From positions 1-22,793 of IMG/VR virus record IMGVR_UViG_3300036790_000092: a stretch of DNA of 22,793 nt; one strand, 5' to 3'. The stretch is from a virus. The position numbers were made by a program, and so were the translations under genes. Below are positions 5,612-22,793 of this stretch, one piece after another (within the stretch, counting starts at the first letter, position 1; each line of letters opens with the position of its first letter). The notes beneath the pieces were generated by a model. That model worked only from the letters and a program-made list of their open reading frames with translations. It did not search any database and had not been told where the DNA came from.

Positions 5612-5787
5612 AGATAACCGTATTCCACGTCGTTGGCAACCTGCTCAAACTCACGCGCGATAACGTCGATAGGCACGTCAAGTTCGAGCAGTTCCGCAGC
5701 GCAATCTCGCAGACCGTCATAGATCGCCTGCTTCTTTTCGCCTCGCGTAGCTCCAACTTCATACTTTACTACTGCTCGGTACGTCAT
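5608..5787 (-). CDS. Small hypothetical protein (59 aa)
   Basis: A 59-residue ORF starting MTYRAVVKYEVG and ending EYGYL. It has a good Shine-Dalgarno GGAG 8 bases before the ATG, and its stop overlaps the FkbM start as GTGA. The N-terminal strand followed by a helical, acidic region (roughly residues 18-52) suggests a compact alpha/beta fold. No family is recognised. Reality is supported by the ribosome-binding site and the coupled junction. Confidence 0.65.
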   Translation of the reverse strand: MTYRAVVKYEVGATRGEKKQAIYDGLRDCAAELLELDVPIDVIAREFEQVANDVEYGYL

Positions 5788-5809
5788 GGCGGGTTCTCCG
5801 TCCGCTCGA

Positions 5810-6106
5810 TTACACAGTCAATGACCTAGAATACTCAGCCTGCAACAAACACGGGCGCGAACAATAATGTCCGTTGCGGTCACTAAGGGGAAGGTCAATC
5901 TCCAACTTGCGGCAGTTCGCGCAGCGCACGCCTTCCTCGTAGCAGTAGTCTAGCGCGAACGCATCGCATTTAGGGCACACCGCAACATCAGAAACGGGAC
6001 CGTCGCTAGGATCCTCCTGCCTGCCCGTCCAACCACATTTCTCGCAGTAACACGCGCACGCCGTTTTAGCGTCAAGCCTTTCTACGATGACAGGCCAGCG
6101 CGTCAC
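5810..6106 (-). CDS. Double zinc-ribbon small protein
   Basis: A 98-residue protein with two Cys clusters. C21/C24 with C44/C47 (CEKC...CPKC) forms a zinc ribbon, and C62/C65 (CANC) with C82/C86 forms a second. Such proteins bind zinc and often contact nucleic acid or other proteins; the role here is unknown. The GTG start overlaps the stop of the basic 70-residue gene (GTGA at 6103-6106). Twenty-two bases separate its stop from the ATG of the next gene, and that spacer carries the next ribosome-binding site. Confidence 0.72.
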   Translation of the reverse strand: MTRWPVIVERLDAKTACACYCEKCGWTGRQEDPSDGPVSDVAVCPKCDAFALDYCYEEGVRCANCRKLEIDLPLSDRNGHYCSRPCLLQAEYSRSLTV

Positions 6107-6315
6107 TTACGGTTTAGTTTACGCGCAGCCTTCGCAGCCTTGCGCTTAGCCCTACGCTGCTCATCCTCAAACGCCTGCGCTGCCTTCATCAACGCTGCGA
6201 CCCTAGCCGACACTTCGACCAGCTCGCCATTCTCCGAAGCACGTTTCATCCGACGCCGCTTCTCTTGCGTCATCGGCTCATCGTACTCAAAGATTTCTCC
6301 TGTACGCGTATCCAC
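6103..6315 (-). CDS. Small highly basic protein (70 aa)
   Basis: A 70-residue protein starting MDTRTGEIFEYDEP. A long helical part follows, ending in a Lys/Arg/Ala-rich tail (about residues 47-70), which suggests nucleic-acid binding or a coiled coil. The GTG start has a GGAG about 10 bases upstream in the 15-base gap after the acyltransferase gene. The stop overlaps the zinc-ribbon gene. The N-terminal pattern resembles small proteins I recall from actinophages. No function is known. Confidence 0.65.
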   Translation of the reverse strand: MDTRTGEIFEYDEPMTQEKRRRMKRASENGELVEVSARVAALMKAAQAFEDEQRRAKRKAAKAARKLNRK

Positions 6316-6330
6316 TTGGCGTGTTCTCCT

Positions 6331-6894
6331 TTACGCAGTCTCAAGCACCCTCGCAGGCACACCAACCACCGTCGCGCCCGCAGGCACATCGCCCAACACC
6401 ACCGCACCCGCACCAACCGTCGCCCCATCACCAATCGACAACAAATTGCATATCGTTGCACCCGCACCGATAAACACGTCGTCACCGATAACCACGTCAC
6501 CACAAATCGTGACACCAGGGGCTATCGTACAAAAATCACCGACAGTACAACGGGTCATCGAACACGCATAGTTGACGTGCGTGTGAACACCAAGCGTAAC
6601 GTCGCACAACAGCACGGAGCGCGGGGCGATCACACACCCGTCGCTGATCTTCACGCGAGGACCGCGCGCCACCGAATCATCAATAAGGGGCAGCGCAGGA
6701 TTAGGCCAACGCAACGACATTTCACGGCGAGTAGCGGACTTGTTCACACCAAGCAGCACGCGGTCAAGCGGGTTTACGTCCAACCGTTCGTCCAATAGTT
6801 CGTCAACGACGGTGAGTTTGCGACCGCATCTTTGTGCTATCGCCTGAATGTCGCGGGAATGGCTTCCTGCGCCGACAAGGATCGTTGCGGTCAA
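6331..6894 (-). CDS. NeuD/PglD-like sugar O/N-acyltransferase (left-handed beta helix)
   Basis: A 187-residue protein combining a short N-terminal Rossmann-like part ([11 protein letters not shown], 5-15) with a hexapeptide-repeat beta helix from about 82 to 183 ([26 protein letters not shown] and similar). This is the NeuD/PglD layout; those enzymes acetylate amino or hydroxy groups of nucleotide sugars. In PglD-like proteins the catalytic His sits in a motif like DHDC before IGDF. Here the aligned stretch reads MTRC before VGDF (about 113-116), and the nearest His residues are H104 and H106. Activity may use one of these, or the enzyme may be altered. The start is in a 4-bp overlap with the gene upstream. 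Confidence 0.85.
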
Positions 6895-7250
6895 CGCACT
6901 GGCTCCCAGTGAACGCTGATACCTTTTGCCCTAGCCCGTCCGGTGAAGCAGCGAGGACATAGCGTTCCAGGCACGCCTAGATACGCAAGATCGCCTGCGC
7001 GCTCTTCCCACCCAGACTCGCCCGCAACCTCGTTCCACAATTCATCACTAGCATGCCAATACGTATCGCCAAGAGCGTCGCCGACGCGGTGACCACAAGG
7101 ACAAATCTCGCAGGCGTAACGACAGACCAGCGAATGCCAAAGCCCGCGAAGTGCCGCTCGGCGATTACGCCACACTCGGCGCGTCCGCCACTCAAAACGC
7201 ACGACGCGCCTGAACTCGCTCCAGTTCGTATAGCGCTTTGGGTCGCTCAC
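6891..7250 (-). CDS. Small zinc-binding hypothetical protein (119 aa)
   Basis: A 119-residue protein with an Arg-rich N-terminal half and a probable zinc site formed by CEICPCGH (about 46-53) and a later CPRC (about 97-100). I chose the GTG at 7250 because it forms a GTGA overlap with the methyltransferase stop and has AGAGG 5-6 bases upstream. A longer frame from 7295 would run 49 bases into the neighbour. No family is recognised. It is one of the Cys-containing small genes interspersed among the sugar enzymes. Confidence 0.65.
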
Positions 7251-7816
7251 GCGATCCTCTCGAAGATCAAGCCGGACCTTACGAAAAACGTCCAAGCATT
7301 ACGCTCCACGATCGCGCGTGACTCAAACGACTCCAACTCCAACAGCCGATAGCCACGATCCTCAAGGTGCCTAACCCAATACTCGGGAGGCTGACAGTTC
7401 ACATGATGATACCCAGGTTGCCCCGGAAGCGCGTGTGTAAGCGCGATCACCCGTCCGTTAGCGAGCGTGTCCAACACGTTACCCACAAACTCCGGTGAAA
7501 CATGCTCGACAACCTCAGCACAGTGAACAAGGTCAACGGGACGCGTATACGGGCCTGCACGCAAATCCCACAGTTCGATCGGTGCGACAGCGTTCTCAAC
7601 GTTTGCGCGCAACCCGTCAAACCCGTAAGCGTCAACACCGTGCCCAGTGAACCACCCAACACAATGGCCTTCACCGCAACCAACGTCAAGCATCGACGAC
7701 ACGTCGAAACGGTCGATAAGGTACTGCCATAGTGCGGGATGCCATGTTAGCGGGTCGCCACCTATGCCGTTACCACCGAGGGACGGGTCGTTAGGATCGG
7801 TCGCTAGTTCGTTCAT
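7247..7816 (-). CDS. Class I SAM-dependent methyltransferase
   Basis: A 189-residue Rossmann methyltransferase. SAM motif I is LDVGCGEG (43-50), an acidic YGFDG lies at about 64-68, and AEVVEHV (100-106) is the post-II motif common to small-molecule methyltransferases. The ATG at 7816 was chosen because it forms an ATGA overlap with the 70-residue gene upstream; the longer frame from 7858 would overlap more. With the FkbM and C-methyltransferase genes, this is the third sugar- or metabolite-type methyltransferase of the island. The substrate is unknown. Confidence 0.85.
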   Translation of the reverse strand: MNELATDPNDPSLGGNGIGGDPLTWHPALWQYLIDRFDVSSMLDVGCGEGHCVGWFTGHGVDAYGFDGLRANVENAVAPIELWDLRAGPYTRPVDLVHCAEVVEHVSPEFVGNVLDTLANGRVIALTHALPGQPGYHHVNCQPPEYWVRHLEDRGYRLLELESFESRAIVERNAWTFFVRSGLIFERIA

Positions 7817-8025
7817 TTTCCGTGCATGGGAAAGTTGGGCCAATGATCCAAGCCACACGTCTCGCAGCGTGGCGGCCCTTCCCAGGAGGTAGGAACGTCA
7901 GGGGTCCAACGCACAATGCCCTCGCGGTCAACATACAAGCGCCCTTGCGTTACGGTGCCATCAGGCTCGCTGCGGCCGACACCGTATTCGAGGTCGTGAA
8001 GCTCGCGTAAGTCTCGCCTAGACAC
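7813..8025 (-). CDS. Small hypothetical protein with one Cys pair (70 aa)
   Basis: A 70-residue protein with the probable strand TQGRLYVDREGIVRW in the middle and CETCG near the C-terminus. The GTG start at 8025 has GGAGG about 7 bases upstream and overlaps the preceding glycosyltransferase by 8 bp. Its stop overlaps the methyltransferase ATG. No family is recognised. The single CxxC could be half of an intermolecular zinc site. Confidence 0.62.
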   Translation of the reverse strand: MSRRDLRELHDLEYGVGRSEPDGTVTQGRLYVDREGIVRWTPDVPTSWEGPPRCETCGLDHWPNFPMHGK

Positions 8026-8608
8026 GCCAGCCCTCCGCGCGATTCACGCCAATATGCTCGACCTGCGGAGTCTCGCCCCAAACGTCGAAACGCCAGCCCG
8101 CATCAACCAAAGCGTCCGTGATCGACCGTTCCAAACCGTCGAAACGCGGATCAGCCATCGCCACCCTAACCGCCTCCGCTTTCACTAAGTGAGGATTCAA
8201 TGAATACTGGTGGCCGTACCGGACCTCACCCCACGCCTGCTCCTCCCCGCTCACAGGCTGCCGCCTAAGCACAAGCTGCGCCAAGTCCGAGTGAGCGTCC
8301 AACCTCGCGCGCATCCCGTCCAAATCCACCGGACATGTGAACACGAAATCGTCCTCAACGTGAAACACATACTCAGCGCCCGTCGCCAACGCGTAACCCC
8401 ACGCCGTGCGAACCGACGCGCCAAGTCCCTGTCGCGTAAGATGGTTCAGCGTTGGATAGCCCAACGCGCAAACCCAGTCACAGTAGTTAGGGTCGCCCGA
8501 GTCATCAACAATGAGTGGAGCGAAGTCGGGGATCATTTCCTCGGCTGCCATGAGCATGCGCTCACAATACTCTAACCGACCGTCGCTTATGACGACAAAC
8601 GCGATCAC
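8018..8608 (-). CDS. Small GT-A glycosyltransferase
   Basis: A 196-residue glycosyltransferase-like protein. The first strand FVVISDGRLEYC (4-15) leads to VDDSGD at 34-39, and a DXD-type metal motif HVEDDF is at 83-88. The later region (RYGHQYSLNPHLVKAEA) fits the acceptor half of compact GT2 enzymes. The GTG start lies in a GTGA overlap with the nucleotidyltransferase, so a donor-making and a donor-using enzyme appear to be coupled. It is shorter than typical GT2 proteins, with no membrane segments, and so is probably cytosolic. Confidence 0.78.
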   Translation of the reverse strand: MIAFVVISDGRLEYCERMLMAAEEMIPDFAPLIVDDSGDPNYCDWVCALGYPTLNHLTRQGLGASVRTAWGYALATGAEYVFHVEDDFVFTCPVDLDGMRARLDAHSDLAQLVLRRQPVSGEEQAWGEVRYGHQYSLNPHLVKAEAVRVAMADPRFDGLERSITDALVDAGWRFDVWGETPQVEHIGVNRAEGWRV

Positions 8609-9111
8609 GCCAAGGTCATCCTAGCATGCTCCAACGCGTCAGGTGAACCAACCTCCACCCACGACACAGGACTCAACCACCGATGCCACGAACCCCGTGC
8701 AAGCCAATGATCACGGCAAGCCCCGAAATCGCTCTCAAACCGTGAGAACGCGTCCAACGCCAACCGGCTGCACCCCGACACCCCCGCGTCCACGCCATCA
8801 CGAAACGCTGTGGCACCAATGCACGTTGTCGCGAACCATGCGCGACGAAACTCTGTAAGATCAACCGGCAACAAAGTGTCACCATAAACGACGATAAACC
8901 GTTCGCCAAGAAACGGCGCGGCCTTCCTTAGCGCCGTCAGTGTCCCCTCGGTGCCCCGGCACAACACCACAGTCGTGTGGTCCTGCGTGTCCAGCCACTC
9001 AAGCTGATGCAACATGAACGGCCTATCACCGACGGTCTGCCAGCACTTGTTGATCGAGGATTCGGAGCGGGTGAACTCGCCGCCACACAAAATTGCTACC
9101 GCGAGACTCAC
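8605..9111 (-). CDS. Divergent sugar-phosphate nucleotidyltransferase (HddC-like)
   Basis: A 168-residue protein of the NTP-transferase fold. The strand LAVAILCGG (3-11) is followed by GGEFTR at 10-15 in place of the usual GGxGTR loop, then K22, the RPFMLHQLEWL helix, a metal-binding YGD at 76-78 and the C-terminal WVEVGSPDAL (151-160), equivalent to the IDIGTP motif. It lies beside the GmhA-type isomerase and HddA-type kinase, so a guanylyltransferase making GDP-heptose (HddC role) is the best guess. The changed phosphate loop and small size (relatives usually have 220 or more residues) leave its activity uncertain. The GTG at 9111 was chosen for the GTGA overlap and an upstream GGAG. Confidence 0.72.
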   Translation of the reverse strand: MSLAVAILCGGEFTRSESSINKCWQTVGDRPFMLHQLEWLDTQDHTTVVLCRGTEGTLTALRKAAPFLGERFIVVYGDTLLPVDLTEFRRAWFATTCIGATAFRDGVDAGVSGCSRLALDAFSRFESDFGACRDHWLARGSWHRWLSPVSWVEVGSPDALEHARMTLA

Positions 9112-9332
9112 GCCGAAAATGCTCCGATCAAGGTACGCTCTACATCGAAGCCATGCGCCCAATCTTGCGTATAGTCACACTCCAAGCATACCCATCCCCA
9201 ACAGGTCGGCACGAGATTGCCATGTGACGAATCGCGACAAGTGTAAGGATGCATTCCTTGCCATTCTTGTCGAGCTTTGAGGTTTGCGACCTGATCATTC
9301 GTCCAAGGGGCGCGACTTATGTTCGCGTTCAC
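9108..9332 (-). CDS. Small zinc-binding phage protein (74 aa)
   Basis: A 74-residue protein starting with APWTNDQVANLKARQ and containing HPYTC, CRDS, WVCLEC and YTQDWAH. The Cys residues fit a small zinc ribbon. The pattern resembles a small protein I recall from actinobacterial phages and prophages, without known function. The GTG at 9332 overlaps the isomerase stop as GTGA; a longer frame from 9431 would run 100 bases into that gene and is rejected. It sits between the isomerase and nucleotidyltransferase genes of the heptose route. Confidence 0.72.
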   Translation of the reverse strand: MNANISRAPWTNDQVANLKARQEWQGMHPYTCRDSSHGNLVPTCWGWVCLECDYTQDWAHGFDVERTLIGAFSA

Positions 9333-9874
9333 GCTTGTAATCCCGTCACAATCGCGTGGAGAATAACGCCCGCTACGCCCTCCGAATGTGGGGTAATCCT
9401 CTTGGGGTACAGTGGCGGAACTATCACACACTCGTCAGCGAGCCGCGCAGTCTCTCCACCATCACGCCCAACGATCCCCAACACCGTCGCCTTACACGCC
9501 TTAGCGTACAACACGGCAAGCGAAATGTTGTGTGACACGCGCGGACTCCCGCCACCAACCGAAAACACCAACACCGCATCGTTCTCGTTGATGCGACTCA
9601 CCTGTAGAAACGAATCAAGCGACCGCTCCCAACCGTTGTCGTTAGTGCGAGCCGTAACCTCCGCCACATTATCCGTAGGCGTCATCGCGTCAATAGCGCA
9701 CAGCTTGCGAAAATCATTTACCGCATGCGACGCTGTAGCAGCACTACCCCCCACACCGAGAATGAACAAGCGACCCTGAAGGTTTCTTAGGCGTTCCGCT
9801 ATCCTGTCGATAGCGTCAACGTCTAATGCGTCGAGGATAGCGTGCGTTTCCGTGATGTAGTCGCGGGAGGTCAC
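9329..9874 (-). CDS. gmhA: SIS-domain sedoheptulose-7-phosphate isomerase (GmhA type)
   Basis: A 181-residue SIS-domain isomerase of the type that converts sedoheptulose 7-phosphate into D-glycero-D-manno-heptose 7-phosphate, the first dedicated step of heptose synthesis. The sugar-phosphate loop GVGGSAATASHAVNDFRK (40-57) matches the GNGGSA loop of GmhA. FSVGGGSPR (104-112) replaces the usual STSGNS loop, and GIVGRDGG is at 133-140. The C-terminal helix carries E165 and H173, where GmhA has catalytic His. This variant is, from memory, the SIS isomerase found next to HddA and HddC in capsule clusters. The start overlaps the 106-residue gene (4 bp). A transaldolase that can make its substrate is encoded three genes upstream. 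Confidence 0.85.
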   Translation of the reverse strand: MTSRDYITETHAILDALDVDAIDRIAERLRNLQGRLFILGVGGSAATASHAVNDFRKLCAIDAMTPTDNVAEVTARTNDNGWERSLDSFLQVSRINENDAVLVFSVGGGSPRVSHNISLAVLYAKACKATVLGIVGRDGGETARLADECVIVPPLYPKRITPHSEGVAGVILHAIVTGLQA

Positions 9875-10191
9875 TCGCGCTCCATGCTAACGTGAGCGCG
9901 TCCGAACCGATCAACATGCACATTGATCATCCACTCGTACGGACAACCGTCTGCATCATGTCCTAAGCCGATCCACCAGTCTCGGTCGCCCATTTGTTCA
10001 ATGTGCAGCCAATTATCGATGACAAGTTCGTCAAACTCGACAGGCTCCGCAAACTGCTCGCTACAGATATCGACCTGGCCACCCGTCTGGTAGCTGCCGA
10101 CCGTTGCACGTCCAACGTTTGCCCGCTTGTGCGCCAAAATGCGCCAAGAGAATCCGGGCCAAAAACGATCCTTGCGTTGCTTGACCGTCAC
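9871..10191 (-). CDS. Conserved-looking small phage protein (106 aa)
   Basis: A 106-residue protein between the kinase and isomerase genes, with a GTGA overlap upstream and a 4-bp overlap downstream. The region FDELVIDNWLHIEQMGDRDWW (about 52-73) followed by WMINVHVDRFG suggests a small beta-rich domain, and it resembles short proteins I recall from actinophages. No catalytic motif or Cys cluster is visible. The basic N-terminus (MTVKQRKDRFW) and acidic centre give a charged layout. Function unknown. Confidence 0.68.
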   Translation of the reverse strand: MTVKQRKDRFWPGFSWRILAHKRANVGRATVGSYQTGGQVDICSEQFAEPVEFDELVIDNWLHIEQMGDRDWWIGLGHDADGCPYEWMINVHVDRFGRAHVSMERE

Positions 10192-11120
10192 AGGATCACG
10201 CAGCCGTCATGGTCGAAACCAAACACCAACTCGCGAACACCCACCGACACCATCACACTACGCAACCGCTCCACGTCATCCGTCACAAACAACAAGAACC
10301 CGCCGCCACCTGCGCCGACAAGCTTACCGCCAAACGCGCCACCCTCACTGATACCACGCTCGTACAAGCCGTCGATATGCGCGTTAGAAATCTTCGAGGA
10401 CCGCCGACGTTTCGCCTGCCAATGCGCGTCAAACAAGCCCCCCAACCGTTCAATGTCGCCGCTCTCCACGCACTCTTTAGCCGACCACGCATCCCGTGCT
10501 ATCACATCCAAGCCCTCGGTGGATTGCACCGACAGGATCTCGTCAGCATTCCGAGCGAACCCCGTGAAAAACAGCAGCAACGACCGCTCTATCGACGGGT
10601 CCGCAACAACGGAGTCAGCGTACACGCTCCCCGACGACCTGAATGTAAGCCCTTGTACCCCGCCGTAAGCGCACGCGTACTGATCCTGCCTGCCCCCAGG
10701 ACGCCCAAGCACATTCAATTCGATAACGGACGCAAGATCCGCTGCCCTGTCACGCGAACAATACTGACCGCTGTACTCCGCCAACGCTTTGCACAACGCA
10801 ACCGTGAACGCGCCCGACGAACCCAAACCCGTGCCAGCGCTCACATCAGCGAGTGACGCAACCTCCACATGCGCAGGCGTATCAAACAAGCGCAAAGCCT
10901 CGCGCATGATCGGATGGCGAAGTTCGCTCACTGTCTCGGCGTGTTCCGCTTCAACGTACTTCAAACGATAACCGTCATCGAACGTCCGATTCACCGCCGC
11001 ATACACATATGAATCTATCGCGGCGGTGACGGTGAAACCGCCGTTAGCCGCCACCCACTCTGGGGCGTCTAGGCCCCCGCCACCAAGCGGGATTCGAAGA
11101 GGACATTTAGCCACGATCAA
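10188..11120 (-). CDS. hddA: GHMP kinase, D-glycero-D-manno-heptose 7-phosphate kinase (HddA type)
   Basis: A 310-residue GHMP kinase. Motif 1 is KCPLRIPLGGGGLDAPEW (5-22) as in HddA, the ATP loop SAGTGLGSSGA is at 94-104, GRPGGRQDQY at 139-148 is the family substrate region, and motif 3 GGKLVGAGGGGF is at 264-275. HddA phosphorylates heptose 7-phosphate at C1. The product, after loss of the 7-phosphate, is joined to GMP by HddC. All kinase motifs look intact, so this is probably active. It is slightly shorter than typical HddA (about 340). It is coupled to the transaldolase upstream by a 4-bp overlap. No HddB/GmhB phosphatase is visible in the window. Confidence 0.88.
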   Translation of the reverse strand: MIVAKCPLRIPLGGGGLDAPEWVAANGGFTVTAAIDSYVYAAVNRTFDDGYRLKYVEAEHAETVSELRHPIMREALRLFDTPAHVEVASLADVSAGTGLGSSGAFTVALCKALAEYSGQYCSRDRAADLASVIELNVLGRPGGRQDQYACAYGGVQGLTFRSSGSVYADSVVADPSIERSLLLFFTGFARNADEILSVQSTEGLDVIARDAWSAKECVESGDIERLGGLFDAHWQAKRRRSSKISNAHIDGLYERGISEGGAFGGKLVGAGGGGFLLFVTDDVERLRSVMVSVGVRELVFGFDHDGCVIL

Positions 11121-11809
11121 AGCGACAGGCCAGCCGCCAAAGCATCATCACGAAATTGGATCACAGTGTTACGCGAAAACTCCAACAAATCAAAGTTTGT
11201 CAACGCATCATACTTCGCAAGAATCATCGGAGGAACCGTGATAATATCCCAGCCGTGCGCAGCAGCCTGCGTGATGTTCAACGGCTCACGCACACTAGCC
11301 CAAAGCAACTCCACGTTATCAGGCCGGTACTCCACAAAATCGATAAGGGGGGCGGGGTCTATTCCTGTGTCAGCGATGCGTCCTGCGAACACGGACACGA
11401 TCCCGCCGCGAGAACTTTCAAGCGCCGAGATAGCATTCTCAACCTGTCGCACGGTCATAACCGCCGTTACGTTCACGCGCACGTCATCCTGCGACAAGCC
11501 CGAAATCAGATCAAACGTTTCACTACCACCGCACGTCATCACCGGGATCTTCACGTAAATACTGTCACGCACGCTATCGCCGTACTCGGAGATAACCATA
11601 GCCTGATCAGCCATCTCGTCAAAATCGTCCGCGACAACCTCAACGCTCAACGCATACTCAGGAAACCGCTCGACGGCTTGGCGAATCCACTCCGCGTAAT
11701 CCGTCACACCAGCCTGACGGCAAAGTGTCGGATTCGAAGTGAATCCTGTCACTCTGTCGCGTAGTGTTTCCATTATCGCAAGATCAGCACAATCCGCGAA
11801 AATCTTCAC
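11117..11809 (-). CDS. Transaldolase (small TalC/FSA-like type)
   Basis: A 230-residue transaldolase-family barrel. GFTSNPTL (22-29) matches the family signature, the Schiff-base lysine is Lys87 in YVKIPV, VNVTAVMT is at 112-119 and VFAGRI..TG at 140-149. Transaldolases form sedoheptulose 7-phosphate from erythrose 4-phosphate and a three-carbon donor, so this gene can feed the GmhA-type isomerase in the same operon. The size matches the small TalC-like group also known from cyanophages. The GTG start has AGGGGA about 8 bases upstream and lies in a GTGA overlap with an 18-codon ORF. Fructose-6-phosphate aldolase is an alternative within the family. Confidence 0.85.
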   Translation of the reverse strand: MKIFADCADLAIMETLRDRVTGFTSNPTLCRQAGVTDYAEWIRQAVERFPEYALSVEVVADDFDEMADQAMVISEYGDSVRDSIYVKIPVMTCGGSETFDLISGLSQDDVRVNVTAVMTVRQVENAISALESSRGGIVSVFAGRIADTGIDPAPLIDFVEYRPDNVELLWASVREPLNITQAAAHGWDIITVPPMILAKYDALTNFDLLEFSRNTVIQFRDDALAAGLSL

Positions 11810-11862
11810 TCGGAGAGTCCCCTACGCACCGATACCGACCTAAGAAGCTTACCGCGCTTCAT
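11806..11862 (-). CDS. 18-codon bridging ORF
   Basis: The peptide MKRGKLLRSVSVRRGLSE is encoded between the 65-residue gene and the transaldolase. Its ATG overlaps the upstream stop (ATGA at 11859-11862), and its stop overlaps the transaldolase start (GTGA at 11806-11809). The fit at both ends suggests that it passes ribosomes from one gene to the next. The peptide is strongly basic; its own function, if any, is unknown. It could be chance, but a second ORF of the same length and arrangement occurs at 13261-13317. Confidence 0.45.
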   Translation of the reverse strand: MKRGKLLRSVSVRRGLSE

Positions 11863-12056
11863 ACGGTTTCACCCGAAAGCGACACGGGCAGGTCGAAGAG
11901 AATCCGAATCGCCTCGGATGCGAGCGCATCGCAACCGGCTTCACATATCTCCCACGGCTCCGAGTGCCCAAGCGCCCCGTGCAGACGAATAGAGAGGCCC
12001 CAATGGCGCTCAATCGGTATGCGATCGATGTGGAGTACTTTGCCGCTTTGTCCCAT
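11859..12056 (-). CDS. Small hypothetical protein (65 aa)
   Basis: A 65-residue protein starting MGQSGKVLHIDRIPIERHW. A strong Shine-Dalgarno GGAGGAG lies about 8 bases before the ATG at 12056, which decides this start over a GTG at 12098. Two Cys (CEAGC, about 39-43) sit before a helix. The stop overlaps the 18-codon ORF leading to the transaldolase. Because 72 bases and a full ribosome-binding site precede it, it is a likely fresh initiation point for the whole heptose segment downstream. No family recognised. Confidence 0.65.
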   Translation of the reverse strand: MGQSGKVLHIDRIPIERHWGLSIRLHGALGHSEPWEICEAGCDALASEAIRILFDLPVSLSGETV

Positions 12057-12128
12057 TAGCGGTACTCCTCCGACACCCACAAAGTCACGACGACACACGC
12101 TTTGCCTCGTTCTGGTGGCGGGTGGGAA

Positions 12129-12386
12129 TCAGGCGTTTGCATTCGTACTCGTTTCACGTATCAATGCGTCGTCACCCGCGTCCAAGTGCAAACCGATACG
12201 CGCAGCCCACGTGCGACACTCCCAGTACGACGCCTCGACGTCTCTCTGCACGTCCGTCGGTAGCACCGAGGGGTAGCGGTGGGCGATCTCGGAGAGCACG
12301 CTGTCGGCGCCCGTGAGAACCGCACGCGCGACAATTAGCAACTTCTCTGCGGTGTCGGTCTGCGGTTCCGCGCTTCGGCGGCTCAT
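12129..12386 (-). CDS. Small hypothetical helical protein (85 aa)
   Basis: An 85-residue, mostly helical protein (AEKLLIVARAVLTGADSVLSEI at about 13-34 and a second helical part with YWECRTWAARIG). It starts in an ATGA overlap with the stop of the second epimerase/dehydratase. No membrane segment or motif is convincing. The first helix is amphipathic rather than membrane-spanning. Function unknown; it follows the alternating pattern of enzyme and small protein. Confidence 0.62.
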   Translation of the reverse strand: MSRRSAEPQTDTAEKLLIVARAVLTGADSVLSEIAHRYPSVLPTDVQRDVEASYWECRTWAARIGLHLDAGDDALIRETSTNANA

Positions 12387-13264
12387 CCCTGTACCTCCGT
12401 CTCAGCTACGGAAACGACCAAGTTCTCCAAGGCCCATCGCATAGCCTCACGCGACGACAACGAAGGCTCCCAGCCAAGCGACCTGATCTTCGACGAGTCC
12501 AAACGAACCTCCGTCACATCACCAGCCCAACCAGGCGCAAACGAAAGATCAACAAACCCGCTCGGTGTGACAACCCCCGACGCCATATCAGCAATCTCGC
12601 GTACCGTCAACTGATCGTCACTCGCCACGTTGTACGCTTCAAACGGCGTGCTCGGACCGTACAACGCGACCTGCATCGCTTCGATAGCGTCATTCACCGA
12701 CAGATAAGACTTGCACTGGCGCCCGTCACCAAGAATCTCCAACCTAGTCGGGTCGGCACGCAACTTTCGCATGAAATCATACCCAACGCCGTGCGTTTGC
12801 CCCGGCCCGACGACATTGGCGAACCTGAACGCTATCGCGCGTATCCCGAACATGTGGCTGTAAGCGCACAGGAGCGATTCTCCCGCGATCTTACTCGCAC
12901 CGTAGGGACTTACAGGGATACACGGATCTGTTTCGCAAAACGCCTTAGACGCATCCACAGGCCGCCCGTACACGCCACTACCCGACGCGTACAAGATCGT
13001 CCGCACACCCGCAAGCCTAGCCGCCTCACACACATTCGCCGTCAACACCGTACCCTCGTTGAAATCAACCATAGGATCGACTGCGGCAGCAGCAATATCC
13101 GCGTTACTCGCAAGATGTACCACTGTCTCATGCCCGCGCATCGCCGCTGTCAACGCTGCGAGGTCGTGTGCGTCGTTGCCCTCGCGCAAATCGAAAGACA
13201 CTGCACCGATAGTCGCGCAAAGGTGCGACCCGATGAAGCCGGACCCGCCGACACACAGCGTCAT
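12383..13264 (-). CDS. NAD-dependent sugar epimerase/dehydratase (second copy)
   Basis: A 293-residue extended SDR. The NAD loop GGSGFIG is at 6-12, ASGSGVYG at 93-100, and the catalytic YGASK at 121-125 (Tyr121, Lys125). The true start is the ATG at 13264, which begins directly before the first strand and overlaps an 18-codon ORF by 4 bp; the frame runs further upstream without SDR features. It is similar to the SDR at 3125-4066 in the substrate region (DF.RKL..DP..LEILG.G) and at the C-terminus (LDSS..R.LGW), so the two may act in sequence or on related sugars. It acts on a nucleotide sugar, possibly GDP-heptose (inference). Confidence 0.88.
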   Translation of the reverse strand: MTLCVGGSGFIGSHLCATIGAVSFDLREGNDAHDLAALTAAMRGHETVVHLASNADIAAAAVDPMVDFNEGTVLTANVCEAARLAGVRTILYASGSGVYGRPVDASKAFCETDPCIPVSPYGASKIAGESLLCAYSHMFGIRAIAFRFANVVGPGQTHGVGYDFMRKLRADPTRLEILGDGRQCKSYLSVNDAIEAMQVALYGPSTPFEAYNVASDDQLTVREIADMASGVVTPSGFVDLSFAPGWAGDVTEVRLDSSKIRSLGWEPSLSSREAMRWALENLVVSVAETEVQG

Positions 13265-13317
13265 GCCGTACCGAGGAACTGATCCAGGCCGAAGCTGCCT
13301 TGGTCGGGAAGCATCAT
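13261..13317 (-). CDS. 18-codon bridging ORF (second)
   Basis: The peptide MMLPDQGSFGLDQFLGTA fills the 50-odd bases between the 65-residue gene and the epimerase. Its first ATG overlaps the upstream stop (ATGA at 13314-13317), and its stop overlaps the epimerase start (ATGA at 13261-13264). Length and geometry equal those of the ORF at 11806-11862, but the peptide sequences are unrelated, which suggests the act of translation matters more than the product. Confidence 0.45.
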   Translation of the reverse strand: MMLPDQGSFGLDQFLGTA

Positions 13318-13511
13318 CGACCTGCCTCGATCTCGCGGTCCTCGTAGTCCCAGCCCGCATCCCACTCCCAGCGGCTGCCGGGGTAGGTGTAGGGGTTCTC
13401 CGTGCGTGCGACGCTCGCGCCCCTAGCGATGGCGCCAAGCTGCCACGGCATGCTGGGCGTGGGAGGCTTGTAGAGCGGCGGCAGAGAGGTGCTTTGGCCC
13501 GGAAGCGTCAA
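13314..13511 (-). CDS. Small Pro/Tyr/Trp-rich hypothetical protein (65 aa)
   Basis: A 65-residue protein starting MTLPGQSTSLPPLYKPPTP and ending in an aromatic, acidic tail (WEWDAGWDYEDRE). The TTG at 13511 was chosen because it forms a TTGA overlap with the stop of the small membrane protein and has a G-rich stretch upstream. A longer frame from 13565 is possible. It looks mostly disordered. Function unknown; the coupled position just after a membrane peptide could mean a shared role. Confidence 0.55.
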   Translation of the reverse strand: MTLPGQSTSLPPLYKPPTPSMPWQLGAIARGASVARTENPYTYPGSRWEWDAGWDYEDREIEAGR

Positions 13512-13621
13512 TGGAGCACCCCCGTAGCGATTAGGACGATGGCCGCGACGGCGAGCACGCCGCACTCGACCATGAAGATCGTCGTGATCTGGGGAAAGTT
13601 CCTTTTGCGTGATTGTGTCAT
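13508..13621 (-). CDS. 37-residue single-span membrane peptide
   Basis: A 37-residue ORF. A basic N-terminus (MTQSRKRNFPQ) is followed by one hydrophobic segment (about residues 12-36, ITTIFMVECGVLAVAAIVLIATG), predicting one membrane helix with the N-terminus inside. A strong Shine-Dalgarno GGAGGAG lies 8 bases before the ATG. Its stop overlaps the next gene as TTGA. It is the only clear membrane protein in the window. It might anchor partners at the membrane; a holin role cannot be claimed from one helix and this location. Confidence 0.65.
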   Translation of the reverse strand: MTQSRKRNFPQITTIFMVECGVLAVAAIVLIATGVLH

Positions 13622-13734
13622 CGCGGGTTCTCCTCCGCTACAAAAGATTATCGGTGCCCCTCCACGCCCATCGCAGAGAGGCACCAAGGGCCGCTCGCCC
13701 TACACGCGCACCCTAGCACCCCTACCCCGTGGTG
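13622..13734 (-). promoter_or_regulatory. Intergenic region with possible leader structure
   Basis: This 113-base gap is the longest within the sugar island and lies before a strong ribosome-binding site, so a new transcript could begin here. On the minus strand it holds a GATAAT (13647-13652) as a possible -10 without a good -35, a small AGGGC/GCCCT hairpin, and a GGTGCC/GGCACC inverted pair about 21 bases apart. None is decisive. Confidence 0.3.
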
Positions 13735-14424
13735 TCAAGCCCAAGGCGTTTCGCCCCTGATCACCCGCGCGTCCACGCTATCCTCGCGATACCTTTTCAC
13801 ATCGCAAGGCCCAAGCCCATCATCGACCGGATGAAACGGGTAACCCGCCTTCGCCCAAGCCCTCCACGCATGCGAATCCGCGTCACGCCACAAACCCTTC
13901 GCGGTCGGAAACCCGCCGCACTTCAAAAACACTTCACGCCGCACCATCACACTATTGTAATCCACACGGTGAAACGGATCATCGAGAACAAGATGCGCCG
14001 AACGCAACCCGCGCTCACTATCAAACTCGTCGATCATCAACTGCGACCCGTACACAACATCATGACCCTCGTCGAGCTTCGCAACCATCCGCTCAAGCCG
14101 CTCAGGCAAATAGTAATCGTCACCCGCCAAGAACGTCACAAACTCGCTGTCCGTGTTTGCTACACCCCAATTCACATTCGCGGCATACCTGCACGACAAC
14201 CTACGCTGACCCAACGTAGTGTTAAACCGCTCATACTGCACACGCTCATCATATGAAGCGTCCAAACAAATCTGCTGCACAAGCGGATCGGACGAACCAT
14301 CATCAAGGATGATCAGCCTGAAATTCTCGAAAGTCTGATCAAGCACGGACTGGATGGACTGTGTAAGCCACTCAGCACAATTGTAAACGGTCTGGATTAC
14401 CGTGACCCGAGGGAATTCACTCAA
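13735..14424 (-). CDS. Family 2 glycosyltransferase
   Basis: A 229-residue GT2 enzyme of classic form. The first strand VTVIQTVYNCAEWL is at 7-20, ILDDGSSD at 39-46 binds the nucleotide, and FLAGDDYYLPERL at 98-110 carries the metal-binding acidic pair. W183-R-D-A-D is in the acceptor/catalytic region. The TTG start at 14424 lies in a TTGA overlap with the HNH endonuclease stop and has GGAG 5 bases upstream. The gene ends before a 113-base gap. Of the six glycosyltransferase-like proteins it is the closest to textbook GT2. No membrane segment. Confidence 0.87.
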   Translation of the reverse strand: MSEFPRVTVIQTVYNCAEWLTQSIQSVLDQTFENFRLIILDDGSSDPLVQQICLDASYDERVQYERFNTTLGQRRLSCRYAANVNWGVANTDSEFVTFLAGDDYYLPERLERMVAKLDEGHDVVYGSQLMIDEFDSERGLRSAHLVLDDPFHRVDYNSVMVRREVFLKCGGFPTAKGLWRDADSHAWRAWAKAGYPFHPVDDGLGPCDVKRYREDSVDARVIRGETPWA

Positions 14425-15011
14425 AGTTCTCCGTTCCCCATTTCCTTGGCCGCTGCTTTTCGTGCTTCGTTGTATCCATATTGGTAGACATCAGAACAGG
14501 TCTTACAACGTCGGCCACCATCCCAAGTAGGAATGATGTTCTCCGGTGTGAACTCGTGCCCGTTCTTACAATGCGTTTGTCGCGCCGCCCGCGCACTTGG
14601 ACTTTCACCACGCAAAATGTTCTCGTGGTGCGTCACGGCTTCTAGGTGATCGGGATTCACACACTTTGTCACCTTACACAAGTGATCTATCTCATGGCCC
14701 TCCGGAATAGGTCCCACAAGCCACTCATATGATAGCCGATGAGCCGCATACGACGGTTCGCCAATATAAAACCGACCATAACGATGTGCTGGACTCCCAG
14801 CAAAAATCCAACACTGACCCAAATCAGGGCGCACCCCTGAGATCGGTCCGTTTTTATCTACTTTCCCCCAAAAGCGATCTTCGGGCGAAGGCTTTGGGCG
14901 TGGTGGCGGCGAACCAAGAGGGTCGCCATACAGGCGAAGACGACGATAATGACGTTCGCATAGACCACGCTTCCTTGCCTTCTCGTCGCATTCCCCGACC
15001 TCGCAATCCAC
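14421..15011 (-). CDS. HNH endonuclease (HNH_3-like)
   Basis: A 196-residue HNH endonuclease, probably a free-standing homing enzyme. The N-terminal CxxxxC...CxxH zinc site (C3, C8, C18, H21) precedes a GDP turn. The nuclease core is AAHRLSYEWLVG (89-100), EIDHLC (107-112) and CVNPDHLEAVTHHEN (117-131), with the expected His and Asn. A second zinc ribbon (C148/H152 with C169/C172) closes the protein. The GTG start has GGGAG 7 bases upstream and lies behind the promoter at 15045-15073. It is coupled to the glycosyltransferase downstream by a TTGA overlap, so it is now part of the sugar operon. Confidence 0.9.
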   Translation of the reverse strand: MDCEVGECDEKARKRGLCERHYRRLRLYGDPLGSPPPRPKPSPEDRFWGKVDKNGPISGVRPDLGQCWIFAGSPAHRYGRFYIGEPSYAAHRLSYEWLVGPIPEGHEIDHLCKVTKCVNPDHLEAVTHHENILRGESPSARAARQTHCKNGHEFTPENIIPTWDGGRRCKTCSDVYQYGYNEARKAAAKEMGNGEL

Positions 15012-16953: not shown

Positions 16954-17006
16954 CTAACACTGCACTAACATTCACTACTTGAAACCTTAGACCAGATCGG
17001 CTAACA
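16954..17006. repeat. Three CTAACA repeats in a divergent promoter region
   Basis: CTAACA occurs at 16954-16959, 16965-16970 and 17001-17006. The first two are 11 bases apart (one helical turn) and the third overlaps the -10 of the rightward promoter. This arrangement fits a regulator binding site, but six-base repeats are short enough to arise by chance. Confidence 0.3.
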
Positions 17007-17007
17007 T
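16979..17007 (+). promoter_or_regulatory. Sigma70-type promoter, predicted leaderless transcript
   Basis: -35 TTGAAA (16979-16984), a 17-base spacer and -10 TAACAT (17002-17007). The ATG at 17015 is eight bases past the -10, at the expected transcription start, so the HNH mRNA should be leaderless. The geometry is nearly the same as at 2728-2763. Confidence 0.55.
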
Positions 17008-17014
17008 GGTACGC

Positions 17015-17674
17015 ATGGAAACATCACAAGGCTGTTACGTTGACGAAGGGAACGGGCCGTGCAGCGGCAAGGTCGTTGCGCATGGATTGTGCGGCAAGCA
17101 TTACCAGCGCTGGAATATCAAGGGTGACGTGTTCGACGCAGGATGCAGGACCAAACCCGTCGTCGCCATAGGCGAAACCCATGGACGCCTTACGATTCTT
17201 GCGGAAGCTGGAACTAACAAGTGGCAGCAACGCTTGTACCTTTGCGAGTGTTCGTGTATTGACAAGACTCAAAAGCTTGTCGCAGGCTTCGCCATGAAAA
17301 ACGGGTCCGTGCAATCATGCGGATGCTTACAGCGCGAACTCTTCACTAATCGCAAGCACGGGATGCACGGTACCCCAGAATACACCGCATGGCAAAATAT
17401 GCTCACACGCTGTCGCGCCAAACTAGGCGACCCTGATTGGGAACATTATGCCGGGAAGGGCATTATCGTGTGTGATGCATGGGAGCCACAGCGTGGTGGT
17501 AGTTTTGAACAGTTCTACACCGACATGGGGCCGCGCCCAGAGGGACGTATGTCTATTGACCGCGAAGACCCTCACGGAAACTACGAACCGGGAAACTGTC
17601 GGTGGCTATCGCTTAGCGAGAACGGCCGTCGCGCGCACCTCGGGCTCCCCCACAAGGAGGGGAACTACCACTAA
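17015..17674 (+). CDS. HNH homing endonuclease on the rightward strand
   Basis: A 219-residue HNH endonuclease with a Cys-rich N-terminus (C7...C16...GLCGKHYQRW at 24-33), a middle CECSC...SCGC segment typical of phage HNH proteins, and the nuclease block TAWQNMLTRC...HYAGKGIIVCDAW followed by NYEPGNCRWLS. It resembles the leftward HNH at 21509 in architecture. The ATG at 17015 is preferred over the one at 17006 because it coincides with the predicted transcription start. It has its own promoter and runs against the flanking operons, as an inserted selfish gene would. Its stop abuts the convergent connector stop at 17675. Confidence 0.9.
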   Translation: METSQGCYVDEGNGPCSGKVVAHGLCGKHYQRWNIKGDVFDAGCRTKPVVAIGETHGRLTILAEAGTNKWQQRLYLCECSCIDKTQKLVAGFAMKNGSVQSCGCLQRELFTNRKHGMHGTPEYTAWQNMLTRCRAKLGDPDWEHYAGKGIIVCDAWEPQRGGSFEQFYTDMGPRPEGRMSIDREDPHGNYEPGNCRWLSLSENGRRAHLGLPHKEGNYH

Positions 17675-18352
17675 TTATGCGATGCCGTACTGAGTGTACG
17701 TCTCGATCAGAGAGGCCACACGATTCGGAACAAGCGGGAACAAGGTGTTATGAGGGTCGATATCGCCACCGTAATCCTGGCGACCACCAGCAGCAAAAGA
17801 CCGAGAAGCCTGCTGCTCGTTCGTCCACCAATACTTCACCAATTCCCGCGCCGCCTTACGCAAAGGCGGAGGCACCGGCTGGTAACCCGCTGTCCACAAA
17901 ACCTCCAAGTTGCCCAAACCCGGGAAGGTGGGGCGAGCGACCAATCCCGCAAAAGAACGTGTCAAACGACCTCGCAAGGCATCAAGTTGATACACCTGAG
18001 CACCACCAGCCTGATTTTCTGGAATCTGCTGAGTAAGTACCTGTGGACCGTTTGATCCCCACCACTCCACGAAGGCCAAGACGGACAGCACGGGGTAGTA
18101 TGGCAACTCCACAAAAGCCCCAGAATATCCTGACCATCCATCAAACCTGCGGAAAAACGTAGTCTCGCCAATAGGGCGACCGATATAGTCCTGGATCCAC
18201 CAGCACGCATCATCCACATAATCCTGCAACAACTGATCCCGAGTAGTGTCAGCTGACGGGATTTGAAGATAGGACTTTACGTCGGTTATATCGATGAAGT
18301 TCGCCCATTGCGGCGGCTGCTCAACAAACTGATTGGCGAACTGTGTACTCAC
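17675..18352 (-). CDS. Head-tail connector (HK97 gp6-like adaptor)
   Basis: A 225-residue protein with features of phage head-tail adaptors: an N-terminal DITDVKSYLQI (22-32), LLQDYVDDACWWIQDYIGRPIGE (about 41-63), a hydrophobic strand around LPYYPVLSVLAFVEWW, and a C-terminal PPLRKAARELVKYWW helix. HK97 gp6-like proteins form a ring under the portal and join head to tail. Its position a few genes after the major capsid protein fits that role. It is the last recognisable virion gene before the sugar island. The start lies just 2 bases from the upstream stop. Confidence 0.8.
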   Translation of the reverse strand: MSTQFANQFVEQPPQWANFIDITDVKSYLQIPSADTTRDQLLQDYVDDACWWIQDYIGRPIGETTFFRRFDGWSGYSGAFVELPYYPVLSVLAFVEWWGSNGPQVLTQQIPENQAGGAQVYQLDALRGRLTRSFAGLVARPTFPGLGNLEVLWTAGYQPVPPPLRKAARELVKYWWTNEQQASRSFAAGGRQDYGGDIDPHNTLFPLVPNRVASLIETYTQYGIA

Positions 18353-20262: not shown

Positions 20263-21516
20263 TCAACGTAGCGCGCTCGTATACCCTGCCCCAACAATCG
20301 ACGCAACCCCGTTCGCGTGACGAGCAATAGCCGCGCAATATTCACGCAAAATCACAACTACTTCCAAGTCCCCAGCAAGGTTCGTCTGCGGATACACACC
20401 CAAAAACGGGTCGTCCTCCATCAAAACCACCGAATCAAACGGAGCGCCAATCACAATCTGTGTCTGATTCGTAGTACCATAGTTCGGCAAATTATCGTCA
20501 GAAAACCAAAGCACGCCACCAGGCATCACCGTGCCCGTAAACCTTGACCACACAGGCACCTGCAACGAATCATTGTCATCCGCGCCCGTAGCAATCGGAA
20601 AACCCGGGGCGAACTGTGGCACAAGAATAGGACGCTGCTCACTGTCAACCTGACGCGTCGCATACGAATACAAATCCGACGTGGAAAACACGTGCGTCGG
20701 ACGCAACCGCGTCCCCGCCGTATCCGTAAGCACCTCCCTAGCACTCGCCATATCCTGATACAAACCCGCCGTCGAATACGACCCCTGCCCCGACACCACA
20801 GGCCCCGCACCCAACGCCACACCAATCACATACACATCAACCTGCTGATCCAACTGCTGCCTAAGCTGCTTCCCCACAAGCCGGTCAAATGTGCCGCCAC
20901 CACCAAACCCGCGATCATAAATCTGCTGCGTAAGAGTCAACTGCCCCGCAACCGTCTGCACAGCACCCGACCCCTGCAAACCCGTACTCGGATCCGTTTC
21001 GCTAACCGACTGACCCTCCACCTGCTGCGTCGTGCTCGTCGTACTAGTAAACGCAGGCAGGTAGATTTGAAGGCCATACGCAGGAAGACTTAGTTTATCG
21101 CATTGGTCTGCAAACGCACGTGTAATTCCCCTAAATGGCGCCCACTCGTCCCACATAAAGTACGGCGATACGAATGCTGCACCACCACCACCCGACGCGG
21201 ACACGGTGATGCCACCACCCGTCGGCAAATTCCGCAATTCCTTCATTGCGGCCCTAAAGGCTTCAGCGTGTTTCCCCGCGTCAGCACCACGGTACTGGGC
21301 ACGAATGACGCGCTCCGCACGCCTTCCCTCAGACGACCGCTGCTCAATCTCGTAAGCCAACTCTTTACCATATGCGGTCATACGTTCACTCACAGCACTA
21401 TTATTTTGTGTGCCATTCATTGCAAGCGAAGTAAGGTCGTGGACAAAGCTCCAAGAAGAATTCGGCCCGTAAGTCCGAGGTTCGTATATCACTCGGGTAT
21501 CTGAAACTTCAGTCAT
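20263..21516 (-). CDS. Major capsid protein (HK97 fold)
   Basis: A 417-residue protein with the features of an HK97-type major capsid protein: a helical, charged N-terminal part (about 40-95, ERMTAYGKELAYEIEQ and following) that may serve as scaffold, a central GGGGAAFVSPYFM (113-125), and a C-terminal PNYGTTNQTQIVIGAPFDS...EDDPFLGVYPQTN block typical of the axial domain of actinophage capsids. The C-terminus is clearly homologous to the partial protein at 22489. The start has GGGAG 6 bases upstream, located inside the 3' end of the HNH gene, which overlaps by 8 bp. A hairpin follows the stop. Confidence 0.85.
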   Translation of the reverse strand: MTEVSDTRVIYEPRTYGPNSSWSFVHDLTSLAMNGTQNNSAVSERMTAYGKELAYEIEQRSSEGRRAERVIRAQYRGADAGKHAEAFRAAMKELRNLPTGGGITVSASGGGGAAFVSPYFMWDEWAPFRGITRAFADQCDKLSLPAYGLQIYLPAFTSTTSTTQQVEGQSVSETDPSTGLQGSGAVQTVAGQLTLTQQIYDRGFGGGGTFDRLVGKQLRQQLDQQVDVYVIGVALGAGPVVSGQGSYSTAGLYQDMASAREVLTDTAGTRLRPTHVFSTSDLYSYATRQVDSEQRPILVPQFAPGFPIATGADDNDSLQVPVWSRFTGTVMPGGVLWFSDDNLPNYGTTNQTQIVIGAPFDSVVLMEDDPFLGVYPQTNLAGDLEVVVILREYCAAIARHANGVASIVGAGYTSALR

Positions 21517-22162
21517 GCAGCACTCCCTTTGCGAGACATGCCTCTAGTTGTAGTTCAATCCATGCCTCGCGGGACAAGTTGCCGCGAACATCGTCTATGC
21601 GTCCCATCAGTGCACCTTGTAAACAGATCTTAGGCCGCTGATTCGCGCATTGTTCAATCTGTGTTTTCCATTCACAATTATCAGGCGAGTACGGGCCGTC
21701 ATTGTCGGTACGGTCTAGGCTGTGCGTCGCGCGGCCACTTGCGTAGGTCCCCTCTGGGCGAGGTGCCATGTCGTCCAAGAAATTTAGAAACCCTTCGGGA
21801 CCAAGCCAACGGTCACAAACATAAATGCCTCGACCGCCGTAGTTATGATAAGAAGGATGTCCTTTGTTAGAACAGCGCTCAAACATTCCCGACCACACCT
21901 TATATAGCGGGTGAGTACTGCCTCGGCCTTTCGGTAGACGGTTACCTCTCGGGTTTTTGGGACTCTCAAAAACACAGTTGCCGCACGATTGCCAAGTACC
22001 ATTACGAAGGGACTGGCCATTGACAACCGCATCGTTACCGCAATCACAGTGACAATTCCACTGTGTAGACGATTGACCACTAGGATGAAATTTCCGAAAT
22101 CCTAGGCTAACCACTTTTAGCTTACCAAAACGTTGATTCGTTAGGTCAATCAAGGGAGGCAT
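21509..22162 (-). CDS. HNH homing endonuclease between two capsid genes
   Basis: A 217-residue HNH endonuclease. An N-terminal LTNQRFGKLKVV segment is followed by C-x-C-x-CGN and SCGNC Cys groups, the nuclease block PLYKVWSGMFERC...YHNYGGRGIYVCDRW and DNDGPYSPDNCEW. This is the intact version of the motif broken at the left edge. The ATG at 22162 was chosen because GGGAGG lies 4-5 bases upstream; a GTG at 22180 is weaker. Its last codons carry the ribosome-binding site and first bases of the capsid gene. It is probably an inserted selfish gene tolerated between two capsid genes. Confidence 0.9.
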   Translation of the reverse strand: MPPLIDLTNQRFGKLKVVSLGFRKFHPSGQSSTQWNCHCDCGNDAVVNGQSLRNGTWQSCGNCVFESPKNPRGNRLPKGRGSTHPLYKVWSGMFERCSNKGHPSYHNYGGRGIYVCDRWLGPEGFLNFLDDMAPRPEGTYASGRATHSLDRTDNDGPYSPDNCEWKTQIEQCANQRPKICLQGALMGRIDDVRGNLSREAWIELQLEACLAKGVLHD

Positions 22163-22238
22163 GTCGCCTCCCGTTGACACGACCTGCTGCTACTGCTACG
22201 CTGCTTCACGTCGAAGCCTCCAGTTAGGTTTCGGCCAC

Positions 22239-22267
22239 GGGGCCGGACGATGACACGTCGCGGCCCC
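22239..22267 (-). terminator. Strong GC-rich hairpin after the 47-residue gene
   Basis: GGGGCCG and CGGCCCC pair over 7 bp. Inside, GACG/CGTC adds four more pairs after a one-base bulge, closing a 6-base loop. It begins two bases past the stop codon of the 47-residue gene. No T-run follows, so it may be a U-less terminator or an mRNA-stabilising structure ahead of the HNH and capsid genes. Confidence 0.5.
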
Positions 22268-22268
22268 A

Positions 22269-22412
22269 CTATTCGTTGCTGTCCTCTTCGTCCTCCACCA
22301 ATTCCAACAAAGCCTTCACAGTCAACTCAAGCTTACGCCTGAGCCGCCGCTCGTTCATCCACAAAGCCCTGTAGCCCCATTTCGGGACCAGTTGTGTTCT
22401 CCGCAAGTTCAC
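22269..22412 (-). CDS. Small charged helical protein (47 aa)
   Basis: A 47-residue ORF starting MNLRRTQLVPKWGYRALWMN, then a charged amphipathic helix (ERRLRRKLELTVKALLELVE) and an acidic tail (DEEDSNE). AGGAG lies 5-6 bases before the GTG at 22412. It sits between the terminator of the capsid paralogue and a strong hairpin. The basic-then-acidic helix could be a coiled-coil assembly factor, but nothing identifies it. Confidence 0.55.
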   Translation of the reverse strand: MNLRRTQLVPKWGYRALWMNERRLRRKLELTVKALLELVEDEEDSNE

Positions 22413-22488
22413 ATGTTCTCCTTGTTCGATCAAAAGGTGAGGACGCACAAAGCGCCCTCACCCACGACCACTACAAACCTACTACCAG
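22413..22488 (-). other. Intergenic region after the capsid paralogue
   Basis: These 76 bases hold the terminator hairpin with its T-run and the ribosome-binding site of the 47-residue gene. I see no promoter that clearly restarts transcription here. Confidence 0.5.
22431..22462 (-). terminator. Rho-independent terminator after the capsid paralogue
   Basis: Read on the minus strand, GGTGAGGGCGC (22452-22462), loop TTTGT, GCGTCCTCACC (22436-22446) form an 11-bp stem with one G-U pair, followed directly by TTTTG. This is the best intrinsic terminator in the window and lies 27 bases after the capsid-like stop. It should reduce transcription into the HNH and second capsid gene. Confidence 0.8.
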
Positions 22489-22793
22489 CTAGTCGGTGTA
22501 CGTGATAGCACCGAGGCCAGTACCAGTGATAGAAACCACACCAGCAGCATACCGAACCAGAACGGCCAGGTACGAAAATTGCTGGCAAAGGACCAGGAGC
22601 GACCCGGCCAAAGTCTGGGGGACCACCCTAGTTACAGGGGTACCCTCATACACAAACACTTCGGAAAGATCAGCCACAATAGCCTGATCCTGATTTGTCG
22701 TACCGTTATTCGGAATGGTGGCATCAGTACACACCGGCAGACCGCCGAAACGGTAACCAGTGAACCCTTCGATGCCCTCGTCACCATCAGACG
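22489..22793 (-). CDS. Second capsid-like protein, 3' part only
   Basis: The frame is open to the right edge; only the last 100 or so codons are visible. GFTGYRFGGLPVCTDATIPN, GTTNQDQAIVAD, a VFVYEGTPVTRVVPQT block and VVSITGTG align with the C-terminal part of the complete capsid protein (PNYGTTNQTQIVIG..., VYPQTN, VASIVGAG), with gaps but the same order. It is therefore a paralogue rather than a duplicate of recent date. It could be the main subunit, a pentamer protein or a decoration variant. A strong terminator follows the TAG stop. Confidence 0.8.
   Translation of the reverse strand, partial: SDGDEGIEGFTGYRFGGLPVCTDATIPNNGTTNQDQAIVADLSEVFVYEGTPVTRVVPQTLAGSLLVLCQQFSYLAVLVRYAAGVVSITGTGLGAITYTD

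Follow-up and report, generated by a model that had tools for sequence, protein, structure and literature searches.

Two diverged HK97-type capsid genes in one phage lineage, with a possible T4-like division of the shell outside the T4 family

The window, by which we mean the whole stretch of DNA analysed, is an entire virus record of 22,793 bases (IMG/VR record IMGVR_UViG_3300036790_000092), which is why the capsid gene at its right edge is truncated at the contig end. Read along the minus strand, the right end carries this partial capsid gene (MCP1), a hairpin, a 47-aa ORF, another hairpin, an HNH gene and a complete capsid gene (MCP2). On the 3' side of MCP2 follow a region with two tRNA genes, small ORFs, a head-tail adaptor gene and a long sugar-modification block. 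The main features are:

22489..22793 (open frame 22489-22791), minus strand: MCP1, HK97-type capsid protein, C-terminal 100 residues (phrog_2263, E = 5.2e-7)
22436..22462, minus strand: GC-rich hairpin of 12 bp followed by TTTT, a candidate terminator or attenuator directly 3' of the MCP1 stop (-25.4 kcal/mol)
22269..22412, minus strand: small charged protein of 47 aa with a GTG start (64% identity to an ORF of contig L138, E = 8e-14)
22239..22267, minus strand: second GC-rich hairpin, 5' of the HNH gene (by folding)
21509..22180, minus strand: free-standing HNH endonuclease, probably a homing endonuclease (phrog_374, E = 1.4e-52)
20263..21516, minus strand: MCP2, complete HK97-type capsid protein of 417 aa with a shortened N-terminal pro-region (phrog_2263, E = 1.2e-13)
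17675..18352, minus strand: head-tail adaptor, downstream in the head module (phrog_442, E = 1.4e-20)

A reading made from the sequence alone, without database searches (the sequence-only reading), had described two tandem, diverged capsid proteins sharing C-terminal blocks, with a hairpin, a small gene, a second hairpin and an endonuclease between them. All of these are real: the hairpins by their folds, the small gene by its counterpart in L138 and the endonuclease by its family match. The best local fold at the first hairpin was equalled in stability by none of 40 shuffles. The 47-aa ORF is probably a real gene because L138 has, between its own capsid genes (L138:9310-9447), an ORF 64% identical to it over 47 aa; no counterpart was found in contigs other than the window and L138. 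The L138 copy overlaps, in another frame, the end of an HNH gene of a different kind. In the window, the stop of the HNH gene overlaps the start of MCP2 by 8 bases.

The MCP1 fragment and MCP2 align with 43% identity over 79 aa and two gaps (E = 1e-13). The shared TNQ, PQT and V.SI.G.G blocks fall within this alignment, and both proteins match the same PHROG, 2263 ('major head protein'). Against Pfam, MCP2 had no family above its cut-off. A search of viral contigs and cultured phages with MCP2 as a single protein returned nothing close, so relatives of the family had to be found by searching with alignments. These contigs (L numbers) supplied the full upstream gene that the sequence-only reading had asked for: full-length MCP1 in relatives has a complete N-terminus and is 508-554 aa long, and its C-terminus in L138, L089, L139, L143, L144 and L145 is 54-70% identical to the window fragment. 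MCP2 of the window has orthologues in 10 contigs (43-60% identity).

The L089/L141 locus holds a full-length upstream protein of 551 aa and a downstream protein of 437 aa in tandem; in L089 these match phrog_2263 with E = 7.9e-28 (MCP1) and 2.9e-10 (MCP2). The partial protein of the window is 54% identical to the upstream protein of this pair and only 33% to the downstream one, to which the complete window protein is 49% identical. Given these cross-identities, the two window proteins belong to separate lines of descent. Overall identity between MCP1 and MCP2 is about 30-36%. No prophage carrying MCP1 or MCP2 turned up in searches of bacterial and archaeal genomes, and all tblastn matches among cultured phages were to Mycobacterium phages, with no T4-like record.

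Both genes are present in 11 virus contigs, and the MCP2 frame is open and full-length in all of them. They stand in tandem in ten (the window, L138, L139, L140, L141, L143, L144, L154, L160 and L161) and 11 kb apart in one, the 128-kb contig L152, where the order is reversed: MCP2 precedes the terminase gene, and MCP1 follows that of the protease. Positions 618-17264 of L171, taken from the same contig, read MCP2, terminase, portal, protease, neck and MCP1, with a match to the phrog_850 RNA-binding protein family 3' of MCP1. Three contigs have MCP1 only. One of these (L159) ends inside MCP1; MCP2 is absent from the 28.9 kb of L145 and from the 72 kb of L162, where portal, protease and adaptor genes accompany MCP1; these phages may do without MCP2, or may have it beyond the ends of the two fragments. 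No contig with MCP2 alone was among the family contigs found. Nor did other family members show a second capsid copy (in 105 such loci the sequence extended 3 kb or more downstream of the capsid gene), and the 57 cultured relatives that matched did so at one place per genome.

A phylogeny, also proposed in the sequence-only reading, was built as two trees with other members of the family. Both recover MCP2 as a single clade (support 100/100) on a long stem (1.15-1.37 changes per column) and set MCP1 and MCP2 together apart from all other family members. The MCP1 rows were not resolved as one clade in a rooted sense in the second tree, so MCP2 may derive from within MCP1. Contig L162, which lacks MCP2, groups beside L138, which has it (93/81), making loss or relocation of MCP2 in L162 the simpler reading. 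Estimates of dN/dS are 0.16-0.30 for MCP1 and 0.16-0.37 for MCP2, indicating purifying selection on both where tested, and both genes are retained between lineages down to 43-49% identity. Judged from these trees, MCP1 and MCP2 come from one old gene duplication within the phrog_2263 family.

An AlphaFold2 model of MCP2, predicted from an 89-sequence alignment with cultured-phage rows left out, reached a pLDDT of 80.7 and a pTM of 0.83. Its best Foldseek matches in the PDB are all HK97-type shells (E = 1e-10), among them HK97, D3, actinophage and gene-transfer-agent shells. MCP2 is thus predicted to keep the whole HK97 fold, from the N-arm to the C-terminal strand.

The N-terminal pro-region is where MCP2 is shorter. 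In phage Omega a delta domain of 155 residues is removed, as shown by N-terminal sequencing (PMC3706429). Mapping that cleavage site onto both proteins leaves 186-233 residues before the equivalent position in MCP1 and 97-161 in MCP2 (97-144 without L143, whose start is uncertain); cleavage of either protein at this position is a prediction from the mapped site. Relative to MCP1, MCP2 lacks the first 80-110 residues of the pro-region. Loss of the entire delta domain was considered and rejected: about 100 residues before the published Omega site (PMC3706429) persist, which restricts the missing part to those first residues. In eight MCP2s this part is replaced by a short motif of the type FTPEQQAEVNRIIGERLARDR, and seven of the N-terminal motifs match head scaffolding PHROGs 14063 or 2303 (E = 1e-6 to 4e-3). 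The motif is absent from MCP2 of the window and of L138.

Elsewhere, fixed differences between MCP1 and MCP2 concentrate in the A-domain. Counting columns conserved within both proteins, 14 of 28 differ in the A-domain and 5 of 47 outside it (odds ratio 8.4, p = 2.6e-4); this p-value is an approximation, given that the rows share ancestry and that the domain borders were drawn by eye on the predicted model. The bias keeps its direction at three conservation thresholds and with four other domain boundaries, and none is seen when MCP1 is compared with other relatives or when two other clades are compared with each other. All four A-domain changes that could be polarised happened in MCP2. MCP2 differs at only 4 of the 42 MCP1-conserved columns of the P-domain, pro-region and N-arm. 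A-domains meet at the centre of a capsomer, and the pattern is the one expected if MCP2 had taken on a capsomer of different symmetry. In T4, mutations that let gp23 replace gp24 (gp24-bypass) include sites in the A-domain of gp23 (PMC9958956).

The interval between the genes may bear on how much of each protein is made. Directly 3' of MCP1, 8 of 12 contigs have a hairpin unmatched by shuffles; after MCP2, 1 of 10 has one (p = 0.011). The hairpins after MCP1 share their position and are unrelated in sequence; most have no T-run, nor is this run conserved. All six contig pairs that could be compared show less synonymous divergence in MCP1 than in MCP2, as a higher expression of MCP1 would lead one to expect. 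In most contigs MCP2 is preceded by a ribosome-binding sequence of its own. Hairpins and synonymous rates together suggest that MCP1 is made in excess over MCP2. The same interval holds a tRNA gene in L141 (L141:9792-9863) and tRNA T-arm-like sequences in L139, L140 and L143, which may mark an old integration or recombination site.

Most tailed phages build hexamers and pentamers from one protein, T4 being the standard exception (PMC3185693). We propose that here too the head would be built from two HK97-fold proteins, the products of one old gene duplication. MCP1 would be the abundant lattice (hexamer) subunit and bear the long N-terminal scaffolding pro-region; MCP2 would assemble together with it in few copies and close the five-fold vertices, the part that gp24 plays beside gp23 in T4. 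The hairpin after MCP1 would reduce MCP2 expression, and the HNH gene would be a passenger. We infer, then, that both proteins are in virions, with MCP2 in low copy number and at the vertex. To this independent T4-like division, with MCP2 in the vertex role, we give a probability of about 0.52. That there is a two-protein lattice of some kind, with MCP2 at the vertex or at another specialised position, seems to us clearly more probable than not. The sequence-only reading had listed a hexamer/pentamer division, a decoration variant and a gene displaced by homing. The first fits best and has gained new support from the pair in 11 contigs, the age of the duplication, the shortened pro-region, the focus of change on the A-domain and the hairpin after the first gene; the assignment of MCP2 to the vertex within it is our proposal from sequence.

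Homing is among the least probable alternatives. It would have HNH genes import a foreign capsid gene or displace part of the original one, leaving a second copy without a lasting role. HNH genes do adjoin the pair in the window, L138, L139, L144 and L161, and free-standing HNH genes are a known feature of Cluster J phages (PMC3706429). The interval after MCP1 is indeed a repeated landing site for HNH genes, yet these differ in kind and in side: the window has a phrog_374-type gene there, L138, L161 (in two frames) and L145 have a different type, and relatives of the window gene stand after MCP2 in L139 and L144. L141, L154 and L160 carry both copies too close together for an HNH gene to fit between them. 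The HNH genes are passengers, since the pair exists without them, and their presence and absence between relatives fits mobility. Because they come and go, homing does not explain the pair; moreover, MCP2 is sister to MCP1 and no distant import, and its dN/dS, like that of MCP1, speaks against a copy without a role. We reject homing as the origin and consider it very improbable. Decay of one of the two duplicates is rejected too, and seems equally remote. The few contigs with MCP1 only would suit it, against which stand the full-length, open MCP2 frames, purifying selection where tested and the retention of both genes between such diverged lineages.

Other readings keep both proteins in use. 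MCP2 could be a shell protein that co-assembles with MCP1 at some position other than the vertex, sharing hexamers, surrounding the portal or being swapped in for a different head size. The predicted retention of the full fold suits this, as does a pair that is conserved, under selection and outlasts the loss of synteny; divergence in the A-domain would suit any change of capsomer environment. Against it, hairpins and synonymous rates point to a lower copy number of MCP2, which suits the 55-60 copies of a vertex protein, and gp24 of T4, the best-studied case of a second, diverged subunit with the HK97 fold, sits at the vertices (PMC9958956). We regard this reading as rather unlikely; even so, nothing measured here, all of it from sequence, separates a vertex subunit from one at another specialised lattice position. 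Less probable still, and in our view quite doubtful, is that MCP2, though descended from a capsid gene, has left the lattice and acts as a decoration protein, an internal protein or something like a scaffold. The scaffolding-like starts of seven MCP2s point that way, and some contigs lack MCP2, as might happen with a dispensable decoration protein. The predicted whole fold makes the decoration variant of the sequence-only reading unlikely, however, and the few changes in the P-domain, pro-region and N-arm are those expected of a subunit still in the lattice.

The T4-like division that we prefer shares several features with gp23 and gp24 themselves. T4 also has two diverged HK97-fold proteins in one phage, a pair attributed to gene duplication (PMC9958956, PMC3012670), and its minor protein has the shorter pro-region, gp24 losing 10 residues and gp23 65 (PMC9958956). 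A head protease gene is present here as well, and the absence of MCP2 from some contigs recalls the dispensability of gp24 in bypass mutants (PMC9958956, PMC3012670). The two pairs are nevertheless not homologous: MCP1 and MCP2 group together beside the phrog_2263 family, with no sequence homology found to T4-like phages (Straboviridae and relatives), and their duplication lies inside that family of HK97-like phages. They are also more similar to each other (about 30-36% identity, against about 20% in T4), and the vertex position is only proposed here. That they work like gp23 and gp24 while standing outside the T4 family has, in our judgement, marginally better than even odds. The stronger statement, that a two-protein HK97 shell with its own vertex subunit arose here a second time, independently and in phages unrelated to T4, and that a short scaffolding-like motif took the place of the first part of that subunit's pro-region, falls a little short of even odds.

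If the proposal is right, the MCP1-only contigs would correspond to gp24-bypass phages of T4 that arose in nature. With a second lineage, in which the pair can be unlinked and MCP2 has apparently been lost at times, the origin of dedicated vertex proteins would become a matter of comparison instead of a single case, and the A-domain changes are a sequence-level prediction open to testing. When capsid genes are counted or capsid sizes predicted from metagenomes, the possibility of two shell proteins in one phage should be considered.

HK97 itself makes both hexamers and pentamers from one protein, unlike the pair described here. Its gp5 resembles MCP2 in predicted fold, and the head genes share the order terminase, portal, protease, capsid. 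The closest cultured comparison is with Omegavirus and other Cluster J mycobacteriophages, whose capsid proteins (Omega gp15, LittleE gp13, Courthouse gp14) belong to the same family, phrog_2263. There the N-terminal delta domain is removed in maturation (PMC3706429), corresponding to the pro-region mapped here from sequence. These phages differ in having a single capsid gene, and mass spectrometry of Omega virions lists one capsid protein (PMC3706429). Like the present contigs, they have sugar genes near the head genes and HNH and intron insertions in the capsid region (PMC3706429).

Intron-like inserts interrupt MCP1 in three contigs (L161:6822-8060, L140:3169-3926 and L159:6792-6916). The L140 insert matches group I introns weakly (37.4 bits, E = 2.3e-7, under the gathering score), and L161 carries two near-identical inserts of roughly 240 bases each at two places in the one gene. 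Two further HNH genes lie in the window at 17006-17674 and 14421-15011, one of them on the plus strand, against its neighbours. The sugar block of the window, an insertion close to the head genes like that in Cluster J phages, spans 222-14424 and encodes a SIS-domain isomerase, a GHMP kinase, a transaldolase-family enzyme, two NAD-dependent epimerases, a C-methyltransferase, a hexapeptide transferase and a glycosyltransferase, a set that resembles nucleotide-activated heptose or deoxysugar synthesis. At 2035-2688 the window encodes a short protein of 217 aa, like a C-5 cytosine DNA methylase, that covers the first third of the Pfam model only.
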